Source of the DNA: Bradyrhizobium sp. CB2312
Lineage (GTDB): Bacteria; Pseudomonadota; Alphaproteobacteria; Rhizobiales; Xanthobacteraceae
DNA length: 64,000 nt
Assembly: GCF_029714425.1 (NCBI RefSeq)
Contig: NZ_CP121668.1
Location: 3,183,501 to 3,247,500 of the forward strand
Direction: 5' to 3'
Shown here: in pieces, positions 43,235 to 49,466 of the stretch
How the letters are laid out: each line of letters starts with the position of its first letter
How positions within the stretch are numbered: the first letter of the stretch is position 1
The notes under the pieces: generated by a model
What the model saw: only the letters and a program-made list of their open reading frames with translations
Database searches by the model: none
Told to the model about the DNA's origin: nothing
Made by a program: the position numbers and the translations under genes

Positions 43235-44623
43235 TTACTGATAAGTCGCCACGATATCGGACACCGCGCGCTCGAGCTGCTGCGCGGTGGCGCATTGACG
43301 CACGACCGTGCAAAAGGTCGCGTAACGCGGCATCTCTGAATCGCCAAAGCCCCAGGCGAGCCTTCCTTCCGGATTGAGCCAGACCAGCCGCTTCGAGCGT
43401 TCGGAGATGCGGCGCAGGATGTCGGCGCGCGGATCGAGATTGTTGCTGCGGGCGTCGCCCAGCACGATCACCGTGGTCTGCGGTGTCAGCGTGCTCATGA
43501 AATCGTGCTCGAAGTCGAGCAGCGAAGATCCGTAGTCGGACGAGCCGAAGCCGACCTTGGACATGATCTCGGCCATCGCCTCTTCCGGCGATTTCTTTTC
43601 CAGGATCTCGCTGACCTCGATCAAGTGCGAGGAGAAAGCGAAGGAGCGGACGTCGTCCACGACCTCGTGCAGCGAATGGATCAGCAGCAGGAAGAAGTCG
43701 GAGACCTGCGCGACCGAGCCGGAAACGTCGCAGAGCGCAACGATCTTCGGTCGGTCGCGATGCTTGCGCTTCCATGCGGTGAGGAACGGCACGCCGCCCC
43801 AGGCGGCGTTGCGGCGGAGCGTGCGGCGGACGTCGAGATGGCCGCGGCGCTGGCGCTTGCGCGGCTTCGAATAGCGCTCGCGCAGGCGGCGCGCGATCTG
43901 GCGAATAAGTGCGCGCATCTCCGCGACCTGGCGCCGCTCGATGCGGGCGAGCGGCGCGTTGCGCAGGATCTCGTTGCGGAGGTTTTCGGCCTCCTCGCGG
44001 GCATAGAGTGCAAGGCCTTGCGAAACCGTGTCGCGCACCGCCTCGCGCAAGCCGTCGAGCGCGGCACGAAGACGCTCGGCCAGCGACGGATTCGTCGCAG
44101 TCAGCCCGTCGAGATCGTCGCGCAGGCGCTGGAGGCCCATGGCGTCGAGGATACGGCTGGAGAAGATGCCGCGCTGGGTGGAGTAGCGGATATCGGACAG
44201 CGAGGCTGCACCGGAAGCGCTGGCGATGGCAGCTTCGATCGCGTTGCGGTCCTGCGACAGCAGCATCTGCGCGAGCGGACCTAATCCTTGCGGAGGCTGT
44301 CCTTCGCCGGACTCGCCAGCCGAGCTGGACGAGGGCGACTGATCCGAATCCTGTGAGGCGTTGTCGTTGTCGTCGGCCTCAGGCTGATCCTGCCGCGGCT
44401 CCGGCTGGCTGAAGAACAGATCAAAGCAATCGCCGAGCGCCAGCTTCTCGTCCTGCGATTTGGCAAGCGTCAGCAGCAGCGCGTCGCGCAGGATCGCGCG
44501 GTCGGAAAAGCCGACCTGCGACACCGCGCGCATCGCATCGATGCTTTCGGCAGGCGAGACGTGGACGCCGACGCCTCGTGCCGCTCGAAAGAAACGATGC
44601 AGGTTCTCGCGCATCGGCGTCAA
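43235..44623 (-). CDS. VWA domain-containing CoxE-like protein
   Basis: A 462-aa cytoplasmic protein. An acidic low-complexity region (about 70-115, rich in D, Q, S and E) separates an N-terminal helical domain from a C-terminal von Willebrand A domain with an intact MIDAS motif DVSGS and an Asp-rich VIVLGDARSNN. The start overlaps the MoxR ATPase stop by ATGA (44620-44623). MoxR/CoxE-type pairs act as metal-insertion or assembly chaperones, for example for CO dehydrogenase; the client here is unknown. A molybdenum hydroxylase exists 20 kb away, but no link is shown. Confidence 0.88.
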   Translation of the reverse strand: MTPMRENLHRFFRAARGVGVHVSPAESIDAMRAVSQVGFSDRAILRDALLLTLAKSQDEKLALGDCFDLFFSQPEPRQDQPEADDNDNASQDSDQSPSSSSAGESGEGQPPQGLGPLAQMLLSQDRNAIEAAIASASGAASLSDIRYSTQRGIFSSRILDAMGLQRLRDDLDGLTATNPSLAERLRAALDGLREAVRDTVSQGLALYAREEAENLRNEILRNAPLARIERRQVAEMRALIRQIARRLRERYSKPRKRQRRGHLDVRRTLRRNAAWGGVPFLTAWKRKHRDRPKIVALCDVSGSVAQVSDFFLLLIHSLHEVVDDVRSFAFSSHLIEVSEILEKKSPEEAMAEIMSKVGFGSSDYGSSLLDFEHDFMSTLTPQTTVIVLGDARSNNLDPRADILRRISERSKRLVWLNPEGRLAWGFGDSEMPRYATFCTVVRQCATAQQLERAVSDIVATYQ

Positions 44624-45567
44624 CCGAAGACGTTGGACCGGGCCGCCTTGGCAATGAAGGTCGTCACCTGCGGCGATGCGGCCTCGATGTCGGCCTCATA
44701 CTTCAGGAGCACGTTGAGCGTATCCTTGACGATATCGGTGTCGAGCTCGGTCGCCTGAAGCAGCACCAGCACGCGCGCCCAGTCGATGGTCTCGCTGACA
44801 GAGGGCAGCTTCTTCAGATCGAGCGAGCGGATCTCGTGGATGAAGCCGACCATCTGCCGGCGCAGCGCCTGCGAGATGCCGGGCACGCGGCTTTCGACGA
44901 TGCGTTCCTCGAGCCGCTGCTCGGGGAAGCCGATATGCAGATGCAGGCAGCGCCGCTTCAGCGCGTCGCCGAGATCGCGCTCGCTGTTGGAGGTGAGGAT
45001 CACCGTCGGCGGCGTGATCGCCGAGACGGTGCCGAGCTCGGGGATCGTGACCTGGAAGTCGGAGAGGATCTCCAGCAGCAGCGACTCGAACTCGGCGTCC
45101 GACTTGTCGATCTCGTCGATCAGCAGCACGCAGCCGCCCGGCTGCTCCAGCGCCTGGAGCAGGGGGCGCGGCTCGACGAACTCCTTGGAGAAGAACACGT
45201 CGCCGAAATCGTGGAGCTGGTCGAGCGCGGCATGCAACGTTTGCGCGCCGCCGAGCACTTCGCCGAGCTTGTCCTTGAGGATCTGCGTGTAGAGCAGCTG
45301 CTTGGCGTATTTCCACTCGTAGAGCGCCTTGGCCTCGTCGAGGCCTTCGTAGCATTGCAGGCGGATCATCTTCATGCCCCGCCAGGCGGCAATCGCCTTG
45401 GCAAGCTCGGTCTTGCCGACACCCGCGGGGCCCTCGACCAGGATCGGCTTCTCGATCTGTTGCGACAAATAGACGGCGGTCGCGATCTGCCGGCTCGCGA
45501 TATAGCCCTGCGCGGCGAGGCCGCTCTCCACTGCCTCGATCGACGTCGAGGCCTTCTGATCAGCCAC
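44620..45567 (-). CDS. MoxR-family AAA+ ATPase
   Basis: A 315-aa AAA+ protein: Walker A GPAGVGKT (46-53), Walker B VLLIDEIDKSD, sensor 1 TSNSERDL and Arg finger LKRRCLHLHIGFP. It is of the CoxD-like MoxR subgroup and pairs with the following VWA protein. Starts MADQKASTS with no signal. Probably remodels or matures a partner enzyme. Confidence 0.9.
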   Translation of the reverse strand: MADQKASTSIEAVESGLAAQGYIASRQIATAVYLSQQIEKPILVEGPAGVGKTELAKAIAAWRGMKMIRLQCYEGLDEAKALYEWKYAKQLLYTQILKDKLGEVLGGAQTLHAALDQLHDFGDVFFSKEFVEPRPLLQALEQPGGCVLLIDEIDKSDAEFESLLLEILSDFQVTIPELGTVSAITPPTVILTSNSERDLGDALKRRCLHLHIGFPEQRLEERIVESRVPGISQALRRQMVGFIHEIRSLDLKKLPSVSETIDWARVLVLLQATELDTDIVKDTLNVLLKYEADIEAASPQVTTFIAKAARSNVFG

Positions 45568-45707
45568 GAAATGGCGCTCCCAAACGTCCTATTTGACGCT
45601 TGTTCTGCCTGCGTTCCCGGCAAAGAACAAGCCTCGTTTGGGAGACATCAGACCCGCGTGAACGGCGTTTTTTCCGCGAAACGCAAATACTTGCGCCGTT
45701 CGCGCGA

Positions 45708-47464: not shown

Positions 47465-47520
47465 AGAGTATTTCCGAAAAACGGAATTAAGTCAAGTGCG
47501 ATTTCCAAAAATCGGAAATC
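47465..47520 (-). promoter_or_regulatory. Promoter with two operators upstream of the 91-aa gene
   Basis: On the minus strand TTGACT (47495-47490) and TACTCT (47470-47465) form a sigma70-type pair. The perfect inverted repeat TTCCG-N5-CGGAA occupies 47472-47486, inside the spacer. A second one, GATTTCC-N7-GGAAATC (47500-47520), adjoins the -35 box; both share the core TTCC-N7-GGAA and their centres are 31 bases apart. Confidence 0.7.
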
Positions 47521-47532
47521 GCTCGATCGCCC

Positions 47533-48141
47533 CTACTTGCCTTTCTTGCGGGGACGGGCCGATTTGGCGCGCAGCCGCTCGAGCTGGCCCTTGGGCATGG
47601 AGAGGCAGATTTCCCCGACCCAGTCGAGCTTCACGCCGACGATCGGCTTGGCATTGAAGCTGGTGAGATTGACGACGGAAGGGGATTTGCCCCGCTCGAT
47701 GGTCTTCAAATAGCGCTCCCCGGTCTTCAGCCGGACCACGGCCTCTTCGCCGTAGAAGCTCGACAACGGATGACGCTGATCCTTGTAGACCACGATCACA
47801 TCACCGCTCTCGTATTTTGGCAGCATCGAATCGCCCACTATCTCGAATGCGATCGTCTCTTCCATGATGGGGAAGGGCAGCGCGATGTCGCCGAGCCCGT
47901 CGGGCGGAACCTGTTCGTAGTCCGGCTCGATCACCGCGCCGGCCCCGACGCGTCCCATGATCGGCGCGAGGTTGAGCTCGAGATATTCCATGATCGGAAT
48001 GATTTCGGAGGCCTTCACCAGGCGCTCGCCGCCGAGGATCTCCGACACCGCGCCGGGCCGCACGCCCATCGCCGCCGCCAGGCCGCCCTTGCTCTTGCCC
48101 GTCTTTTCCAGGCCCCGCTCGATCATCGCAACGTCCAACAT
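47533..48141 (-). CDS. XRE-family repressor with S24 (LexA/CI-type) autoprotease domain
   Basis: A 202-aa transcription factor. Residues 1-55 form a helix-turn-helix (GGLAAAMGVRPGAVSEIL). The C-terminal peptidase S24 domain has catalytic S105 in IVGDSML and a catalytic Lys at K146 (YLKTIER); the Ala-Gly cleavage site may be A67-G68 (RVGAGAV). The C-tail is Lys/Arg-rich. Such proteins are inactivated by RecA-stimulated self-cleavage, if the dyad is functional. Its own promoter and those of the 91-aa gene and the GcrA-like gene share one operator sequence. Confidence 0.9.
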   Translation of the reverse strand: MLDVAMIERGLEKTGKSKGGLAAAMGVRPGAVSEILGGERLVKASEIIPIMEYLELNLAPIMGRVGAGAVIEPDYEQVPPDGLGDIALPFPIMEETIAFEIVGDSMLPKYESGDVIVVYKDQRHPLSSFYGEEAVVRLKTGERYLKTIERGKSPSVVNLTSFNAKPIVGVKLDWVGEICLSMPKGQLERLRAKSARPRKKGK

Positions 48142-48173
48142 GGTGATTCCCTCGATTGCCCATCGACTGTCCT

Positions 48174-48203
48174 CTTGTAGTCCGGAATTCGGAATAAATG
48201 CAA
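48174..48203 (-). promoter_or_regulatory. Promoter of the S24 repressor gene with operator copy
   Basis: On the minus strand TTGCAT (48203-48198), three bases, then TTCCG-AATTC-CGGAC (48194-48180) and TACAAG (48179-48174). The operator occupies the spacer in the same position as in the 91-aa gene promoter, implying negative autoregulation. Confidence 0.65.
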
Positions 48204-48225
48204 TTATGAATATCAGAATTATTGC

Positions 48226-48254
48226 TTGACTCTCGCTTCGGAATACCGGAATGT
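48226..48254 (+). promoter_or_regulatory. Promoter of the GcrA-like gene with operator copy
   Basis: TTGACT (48226-48231) is followed after five bases by TTCGG-AATAC-CGGAA (48237-48251), a one-mismatch copy of the operator. A -10 box is not clear (GAATGT is the best at the right distance). The site again overlaps the spacer. Confidence 0.55.
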
Positions 48255-48306: not shown

Positions 48307-48840
48307 ATGGAACCGGGTCATTGGCCGTCGGAACACTCCGACGCGCTTCGCGACTATTTTCTCAAAGGACTATCCTATGCGGAGATCGGGAGAGAGATTA
48401 ACGCAAGGTTTGGAACGGCTTACACGCGCAATGCCGTGGCGGGCCGGGTCAAGCGGCTCGGACTTGTCGGGGTTGCACGGGTGACCAGCCCGCCGATCGC
48501 GCCGTCCTTGCCAGGCGAGACCTGTCTGCTTTCGGCACATCGCCCGGCATTGCCGAACCTGATGCTGCCGCCGAAATCCGCGATGAAGCCCGCCGCACAG
48601 GTGAAGCTGCGCTGCGTCGGCGTCCAGCCGCGGCTGATCTCGTTCGCCGAACTCGCAGCCGGCGATTGCCGCTATCCCTATGGCGGCGACAGGGACGGGG
48701 AGGAGATCACCTTCTGCGGACATCCGCGCCAGCCAGGCTCCAGCTATTGCACGCCGCATGCGCGCCTGACGCGCCGGTCCGGAGTTGCGCCCGCCCGTGC
48801 AGCCGGTCCCGTCGTGCTGAGGCTGGTTTTCGCCGCCTGA
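48307..48840 (+). CDS. GcrA family cell-cycle regulator-like protein
   Basis: A 177-aa protein from ATG 48307 (AGGACAGC upstream). The N-terminal third matches the GcrA DNA-binding helix-turn-helix (LKGLSYAEIGREI...TRNAVAGRVKRLGL), and the C-terminus has the Cys/His-rich GDCRYPYG...FCGHPRQPGSSYCTPHARL. GcrA activates sigma70 promoters carrying methylated GANTC in alphaproteobacteria. The short linker and the context beside an S24 repressor suggest this is a paralogue, perhaps phage-derived, not the housekeeping GcrA. Confidence 0.85.
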   Translation: MEPGHWPSEHSDALRDYFLKGLSYAEIGREINARFGTAYTRNAVAGRVKRLGLVGVARVTSPPIAPSLPGETCLLSAHRPALPNLMLPPKSAMKPAAQVKLRCVGVQPRLISFAELAAGDCRYPYGGDRDGEEITFCGHPRQPGSSYCTPHARLTRRSGVAPARAAGPVVLRLVFAA

Positions 48841-48890: not shown

Positions 48891-49466
48891 GTGGCACGTG
48901 CCCGACGCAACAAATCCTACAAATTGACCGGGATCTATGACCGGCGCTCGCGCGAGATGCCGTTCAATGCCGACGTGGCCGAGGTCGAGGTCGACAATCC
49001 ATTGGCGCTCGATCCCGGCGAGAAGATCATGGCCATCCGCTCGGTCCGCAGCGATCCGCTCGGCCGGTTGCATTCGCACCATCAGATCGACGAGGCGCAA
49101 TACCGTGGCGGACGCGCCTTTCAGAACGATTGGGAGAGGGCGGAGCGGGGGCCGCAGGCGGTGGATACGACGCGCGAATATGTCGATGGCACAAGCACGC
49201 GTGAGCCCCTCACCGAGAGCCAGCGCCAGGCGGTGCTGCGGCTGAACCGGGTCGAGCGCGAGCTCGGCACCGACGGCGCGGGGCTGGTGCACGACGTGCT
49301 GGTGCAGGGCCTGACCATGGACCAGATCGGAGAGCGTCGCGCTGTCCGTACGCAGCGCTGGAACGACTATTTTGCACGCCGCTTTCGCGAATGCCTGGAC
49401 CGGCTGGCGCTGATCTATGGCTTTGCGACGGAAGCGGGAACGAAGCGTGCAGACCGCCGCAAATGA
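48891..49466 (+). CDS. DUF6456-like protein
   Basis: A 191-aa protein from GTG 48891 with AAGGAG upstream. It has a charged N-terminal region, a segment DPLGRLHSHHQIDEAQYRGGRAF, and a C-terminal helical domain (LNRVERELGTDGAGLVHDVLVQGLTMDQIGE...RWNDYFARRFRECLDRLALIYG) that I recognise as similar to DUF6456, often paired with DNA-binding regulators in Rhizobiales. It looks like a small DNA-binding or sigma-4-type protein. It is 50 bases downstream of the GcrA-like gene, in the same transcript. Confidence 0.65.
   Translation: MARARRNKSYKLTGIYDRRSREMPFNADVAEVEVDNPLALDPGEKIMAIRSVRSDPLGRLHSHHQIDEAQYRGGRAFQNDWERAERGPQAVDTTREYVDGTSTREPLTESQRQAVLRLNRVERELGTDGAGLVHDVLVQGLTMDQIGERRAVRTQRWNDYFARRFRECLDRLALIYGFATEAGTKRADRRK

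Follow-up and report, generated by a model that had tools for sequence, protein, structure and literature searches.

A putative phage-derived lysogeny switch with five operator sites, retained across Bradyrhizobium

We analysed a 64,000-nt stretch of Bradyrhizobium sp. CB2312 (GCF_029714425.1, NZ_CP121668.1, positions 3,183,501–3,247,500, forward strand; hereafter the window), in which a gene for an S24-type repressor is flanked by the leftward gene p91 and by rightward genes encoding a GcrA-like and a DUF6456-like protein. With a probability of roughly three in four, an ancient temperate phage left this module, its lysogeny switch, behind in Bradyrhizobium, where it was domesticated across the genus after the virion genes decayed. 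The repressor would bind a 15-bp palindrome (consensus TTCYGAWWWTCRGAA) that occurs five times, twice at the leftward p91 promoter and three times between the divergent promoters of the repressor and of the gcrA-like/DUF6456-like genes, and from the promoter spacers it would hold down all three transcripts, its own included. Its inactivation, most likely by self-cleavage at A67-G68 through S105 and K146, would allow the three transcripts to rise together; the proteins so released, a Q21-like antiterminator and a GcrA-like partner of sigma-70, are predicted to act in trans on some target.

An earlier, sequence-only reading of the window had described four operator sites sharing one pattern in three promoters around the repressor. 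All four are present at the positions it gave, both by direct reading and by scan, but the set was incomplete: a fifth, more degenerate site (TTATGAATATCAGAA) lies in the middle of the interval between the repressor and gcrA-like genes (Table 1). That interval holds three 15-bp operators, and two more precede p91, where TTCCAAAAATCGGAA forms the core of a longer inverted repeat with arms reaching out to 47498–47522. At one mismatch or fewer to the first pattern, TTCCG-N5-CGGAA, the 64-kb window contains six places, four of which are module sites falling inside 780 bases. In Markov simulations of both intergenic stretches (n = 20,000), three or more sites never arose, two arose 14 times, and a single site 636 times.

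The operators are conserved well beyond this genome. We compared 70 loci, comprising the window's own and 69 relatives (the 30 best matches and 40 picked across the range), counting sites with up to two mismatches and taking the gcrA side as the first 200 bases (130 bases in the shuffle control of 1,400 shuffles). Every locus held at least two gcrA-side sites and at least one p91-side site; three gcrA-side sites were found in 57/70 loci and two p91-side sites in 53/70. The mean was 4.57 sites per locus, compared with 0.03 (maximum 1) in shuffles. Spacing was also regular: gcrA-side sites most often stood 33 and 24–25 bp apart and p91-side sites 31 bp apart, the last being the distance between TTCCGAAAAACGGAA and TTCCAAAAATCGGAA in the window. 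Within the aligned repressor–gcrA intergenic region, the mean frequency of the commonest letter fell from 0.88 within the three sites to 0.65 in the surrounding columns (Mann-Whitney p = 7e-7), and the operator columns were conserved although the GcrA-like proteins of the distant loci L042–L080 are only 45–61% identical to the window's. The 70-locus comparison thus supports one operator family at three promoters around an S24-type repressor, retained in all 70 loci that keep the genes; loss of the sites in such relatives was an outcome that the sequence-only reading had named as counting against it.

The promoters themselves are less uniform in quality. The sequence-only reading had set each site shortly behind a −35 box, which stands by position (3, 3 and 5 bases away), but a good match to sigma-70 is seen at p91 alone, whose promoter agrees with the consensus at 9 of 12 letters. 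Our promoter scan listed none for the repressor or the gcrA-like operon, where the −10 boxes are weak or unclear, and no good −10 was found for the gcrA-like operon. The −35 elements of both are nonetheless conserved blocks in the 70-locus alignment (TTGCAT for the repressor; GCTTGAC for the gcrA-like operon).

Searching the 9.78-Mb genome with the refined consensus TTCYGAWWWTCRGAA, which was derived from the 70-locus comparison, returned 10 places with at most one mismatch (3 in a reversed-pattern control); three of these are the module's own, and the other seven have no recurring neighbour. The first pattern gave 21 exact places versus 15 in its control, and by itself has little power for a genome-wide regulon search. 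Based on the neighbours of all seven extra consensus places and of three of the other 20 exact first-pattern places, the genome-wide search that had been proposed recovers three of the module's own sites but does not support a wider regulon.

Table 1. Genes, promoters and operators of the module (window positions).
Feature	Position	Strand	Description
p91, 91 aa	47151–47426	−	Homologous to leftward early-region genes of some phages
p91 promoter	47467–47495	−	TTGACT (47495–47490), 17-bp spacer, AATACT (47472–47467)
Operator TTCCGAAAAACGGAA	47472–47486		0 mismatches to TTCCG-N5-CGGAA; fills p91 promoter spacer
Operator TTCCAAAAATCGGAA	47503–47517		1 mismatch; upstream of p91 −35
S24-type repressor, 202 aa	47533–48141	−	Helix-turn-helix, then Peptidase_S24 domain
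Putative repressor promoter	48174–48203	−	TTGCAT (48203–48198), 18-bp spacer, TACAAG (48179–48174); by inspection, weak consensus
Operator GTCCGGAATTCGGAA	48180–48194		1 mismatch; within putative repressor promoter
Operator TTATGAATATCAGAA	48204–48218		Middle site, more degenerate; 1 mismatch from refined consensus TTCYGAWWWTCRGAA
−35-like TTGACT of gcrA-like operon	48226–48231	+	Within conserved block GCTTGAC
Operator TTCGGAATACCGGAA	48237–48251		1 mismatch; behind TTGACT −35 of gcrA-like operon
GcrA-like gene	48307–48840	+	First rightward gene (cro position); Pfam GcrA 2.1e-46
DUF6456-like gene	48891–49466	+	Candidate Q21-like antiterminator; GTG start

The repressor's best PHROG match is a phage transcriptional repressor family (2.7e-13); sequence search found no relative of solved structure. 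Residues A67-G68 (GRVGAG), S105 (GDSM) and K146 (YLK) are invariant in 70/70 loci. We take these to be the cleavage site and catalytic dyad of LexA and lambda CI, and because they are kept, self-cleavage is plausible. The same genome encodes a second S24-domain regulator (G000:C1:752320-752616; locus L002, open reading frame 1414–2088, − strand), which has GDAL in place of the catalytic serine and, with VATL, also seems to lack the lysine (alignment by eye).

Of 117 same-genus genomes, 112 have a close homologue of the repressor (72–100% identical), and the others are five drafts of 67–95% completeness. Outside the genus, an even draw of 296 family genomes gave no comparable match (best 54% over part of the protein), and 79 of 80 record titles name Bradyrhizobium. 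The module is most likely core to this genus. One record titled Frankia sp. RB7 (L175, JAUEPE010000040.1) encodes a Bradyrhizobium repressor at 95% identity and is probably mislabelled or contaminated.

All four switch genes are under purifying selection, with median ratios of nonsynonymous to synonymous substitution (dN/dS) of 0.02–0.37 for pairs with dS of 0.1–1.2, as calculated without a host-gene control. The lowest value was that of the repressor (0.02 in clade 1; 0.11 in clade 2), while medians for clades 1 and 2 were 0.13 and 0.14 for p91, 0.13 and 0.15 for the DUF6456-like gene, and 0.27 and 0.37 for the GcrA-like gene. Damage to the switch was seen rarely among the compared genomes: two genomes (G077 and G078) have a split repressor match, and in locus L015 the p91 alignment begins only at residue 35.

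The neighbouring phage genes present a different picture. We searched 80 of the 117 same-genus genomes for terminase homologues and found them in 46. In 37 genomes the homologue lies on the switch contig within 100 kb (7.4–75.8 kb), always to the right of the switch and on the + strand in window orientation; six of these match from end to end, and in 31 the match is confined to the first 32–299 of 428 residues. Further matches were located far off on the same contig (3) or on other contigs (11), and the window's own genome gave no match in this search. In genome G092, weak family matches led to a terminase-like gene (Terminase_3, 2.5e-22) at a distance of 36 kb from the switch. Portal genes near two of the terminases are fragmentary, with 209 and 128 aa against the 593 positions of the family, and the genes between switch and terminase read as host genes. 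Within the loci listed, no virion genes adjoin the switch; those found were distant terminase homologues, mostly truncated, and portal fragments. Switch and terminase likely derive from one phage. A single chromosomal region offers a natural contrast between switch genes under selection and a decaying terminase and portal. One terminase large-subunit gene of this kind is that at L282:14808-16094.

No Pfam, PHROG or NCBIfam model matched p91. The GcrA-like protein scores 51 bits against NCBIfam sig70cofacGcrA (cut-off 280), and two other genes of the genome, scored over the stretch that matched, reach 161 and 95 bits; because all three fall below the cut-off, these scores rank the candidates rather than exclude any. 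The DUF6456-like protein is the genome's best match to PF20057 (21.3 bits, E 3e-4) but lies below the gathering score of 26.3, as does every other match in the genome; among 64 aligned relatives, 62 match the same family with E of at most 0.01 (best 2.3e-9). When its structural model was compared with solved structures, phage 21 antiterminator Q (Q21) occupied ranks 1–5, with a score that is suggestive of a Q21-like fold.

Early regions of phages contain homologues of three module genes, the GcrA-like and DUF6456-like genes and p91. A scan of IMG/VR yielded 74 contigs with a DUF6456-like gene (906 kb; many contigs or fetched stretches incomplete). A homologous terminase large subunit was present in 33 of them, a GapR-domain gene also in 33, a GcrA-like gene in 13, DUF1376 in 9 and a p91 homologue in 8 (E of at most 1e-3, some matches weak), counts that stand without a background control. 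All eight p91 homologues are encoded on the strand opposite the DUF6456-like gene. Contig L236 has the same order as the module, p91(−), GcrA(+), DUF1376(+) and DUF6456-like(+), followed by terminase(+); no repressor was identified on it. Beyond p91, L238 and L256 have same-strand genes that resemble RecT and ERF on reading by eye. A DUF1376 gene likewise sits between the GcrA-like and DUF6456-like genes in chromosomal loci L052 and L054 (Pfam-tested for L052), and in prophage ppBeUSDA76-2 a DUF6456-like gene (49% identical) follows DUF1376, with two small genes between it and the terminase large subunit. An S24 homologue was present in only two of the 74 phage contigs (L196, L249), which slightly reduces our confidence in a domesticated phage switch.

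Several further records touch on these genes. GapR and GcrA are protein types known from the host cell cycle; the GapR-domain genes noted above lie among contigs L194–L267, and ppBeUSDA76-2 has one too. Phage-like regions in other Hyphomicrobiales (L101, L104, L105; Mu-like by reading) seem to carry GcrA-like genes, and GcrA-domain proteins may be common in phages. A 4.5-kb IMG/VR record (L268) contains a Bradyrhizobium-type switch, with a repressor 78% identical to the window's, p91, GcrA, DUF1376 and five sites at two mismatches or fewer; it is probably a chromosomal fragment misfiled as viral.

Published expression data bear on the predicted regulation. Deletion of nasT in B. diazoefficiens USDA 110 raised four genes together, by 2.1- to 3.3-fold: bll6133 (+2.13), bll6134 (+3.33), blr6135 (+3.24), annotated 'Putative repressor LexA', and blr6136 (+2.96) (PMC6759348 Table 3). 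Bll6133 is named as a homologue (P0183, 89%) of the DUF6456-like protein, and the other three were assigned by order and strand. Shared, autoregulated operators would predict just such a joint rise of three transcripts, one of them the repressor's own. Since neither recA nor any other SOS gene appears in Table 3 of that paper, the trigger in the nasT mutant need not be DNA damage; a text search of PMC6759348 found LexA mentioned only in the blr6135 table row. The uncharacterised genes bll4091, blr4022, blr4764 and blr4566-4568 were also raised (PMC6759348 Table 3), and could be candidates for the target of the switch.

We suggest, tentatively and with considerable doubt, that a complete lambda-type circuit (self-cleaving-type repressor, paired operator arrays, sigma-70 partner and Q21-like antiterminator) now serves as a genus-wide core regulator, using antitermination to switch on genes of the host or of resident prophages that are unlinked to it when stress occurs, with DUF6456 proteins (GafA/GafZ) sharing the Q21 fold. 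If functional, the module would give Bradyrhizobium, the soybean symbionts, a second S24-type repressor switch of phage parts, present genus-wide, and it predicts five binding sites, one cleavage site, four co-induced genes and an antiterminator with mappable targets. It would also provide a structural lead on how DUF6456 proteins such as GafZ, controllers of gene transfer agents (GTAs), work.

Other explanations were weighed against a domesticated lysogeny switch. The repressor may instead confer superinfection immunity, blocking incoming phages with the same operators while the other genes are passengers. Its standing as the most constrained gene (in clade 1) and the phage-immunity-like layout would fit this, but purifying selection also acts on p91 and on the GcrA-like and DUF6456-like genes (medians 0.13–0.37), and operators with at most one mismatch were found in only two of the 74 phage contigs (906 kb), one site each; we therefore regard this explanation as unlikely.

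Somewhat less probable still is that the module controls an unlinked GTA or phage-like particle cluster in the manner of RogA and GafYZ, an idea encouraged by the annotation of GafA homologues as DUF6456 proteins (PMC9638019) and by Caulobacter RogA, an S24-like repressor that binds a gafYZ promoter region with GGAA-N4-TTCC repeats (PMC9632790). However, RogA is described as lacking the catalytic residues (PMC9632790), which the present repressor keeps, and a search of this genome for the GTA_TIM marker of RcGTA-type agents gave 0 matches where the Caulobacter control was positive, so that by this marker such an agent was rejected. None of three particle genes was common to the 20 genomes searched, with HK97 capsid in 7, portal in 5 and Terminase_6N in 10; by these three models, which do not extend to tailocins or other capsid families, there is no universal particle cluster. 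As the catalytic residues are present and no RcGTA-type marker was found, the module is, judging from sequence, most likely not a member of the RogA/GafYZ system.

The sequence-only reading had favoured a DNA-damage or stress switch that releases a cell-cycle-type regulator, and a host switch of this kind would suit the invariant self-cleavage residues and the GcrA-domain gene in the operon. The alphaproteobacterial LexA box is GTTC-N7-GTTC, and in a scan for exact (not degenerate) boxes none was found in the module promoters; the window's only exact matches are at 974, 31842, 45602 and 45991. Furthermore, the gene set and order are phage-like, and the designation 'cell-cycle-type regulator' was not borne out, as the cell-cycle GcrA model scores the gene below two others of the genome and its homologues occur in phage early regions. 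We consider a host stress or cell-cycle switch very unlikely. Separately, the match at 45602–45616 lies about 35 bases upstream of an AAA-ATPase-like open reading frame (44620–45567, − strand), possibly by chance given four such matches in 64 kb. A slowly decaying relic without present function is the most improbable explanation, for although the terminase and portal remains in the neighbourhood are in decay and a few genomes have damaged switch genes (G077, G078, L015), the module is retained in 112/117 genomes with purifying selection on four genes and conserved operator spacing.

Among known systems, a domesticated lysogeny switch invites comparison with the phage lambda immunity region, arranged as OL-cI-OR with cro and Q. 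In the module, too, the repressor gene is flanked by two sets of operators at outward-facing promoters, the repressor is of putatively self-cleaving type (Ala-Gly, Ser and Lys present), and a candidate late antiterminator ends the rightward operon; p91 reads leftward, and the GcrA-like gene (with DUF1376 in some relatives) and DUF6456-like gene read rightward. It differs from lambda in having a GcrA-like gene in the cro position, where no Cro-like second repressor was found, a Q21-like/DUF6456 protein rather than lambda Q, two plus three operators, and no attached virion genes. Prophage ppBeUSDA76-2 of Bradyrhizobium elkanii (OP596614.1) shares DUF1376 followed by the DUF6456-like gene shortly before the terminase large subunit. 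Unlike the module, it is recorded as a complete phage genome with an integrase, has no GcrA annotated in 37,142 of its 41,843 bases, and was not listed by a tblastn search of the phage collection with the module repressor.

In Pseudomonas, AlpR and PrtR are S24-type self-cleaving repressors over a phage-derived antiterminator or activator (AlpR-AlpA, PrtR-PrtN), and these pairs control lysis or pyocin genes. AlpA is described as an antiterminator (PMC11150451). The module resembles these pairs in placing an S24-type repressor over a candidate phage-derived antiterminator, and departs from them in keeping an OL/OR-like layout and in that no effector was found for it. With Caulobacter RogA-GafY-GafZ it shares an S24-like repressor over an operon ending in a GafA-type (DUF6456-related) gene, and inverted repeats of GGAA/TTCC type (PMC9632790, PMC11150451). 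Beyond the catalytic residues of the repressor, it differs in its GcrA-like first gene and in a genome without an RcGTA-type GTA_TIM gene; a RogA-like lack of these residues is seen in the paralogue at 752320, whose GDAL and VATL motifs leave it without the serine and, by eye, the lysine.
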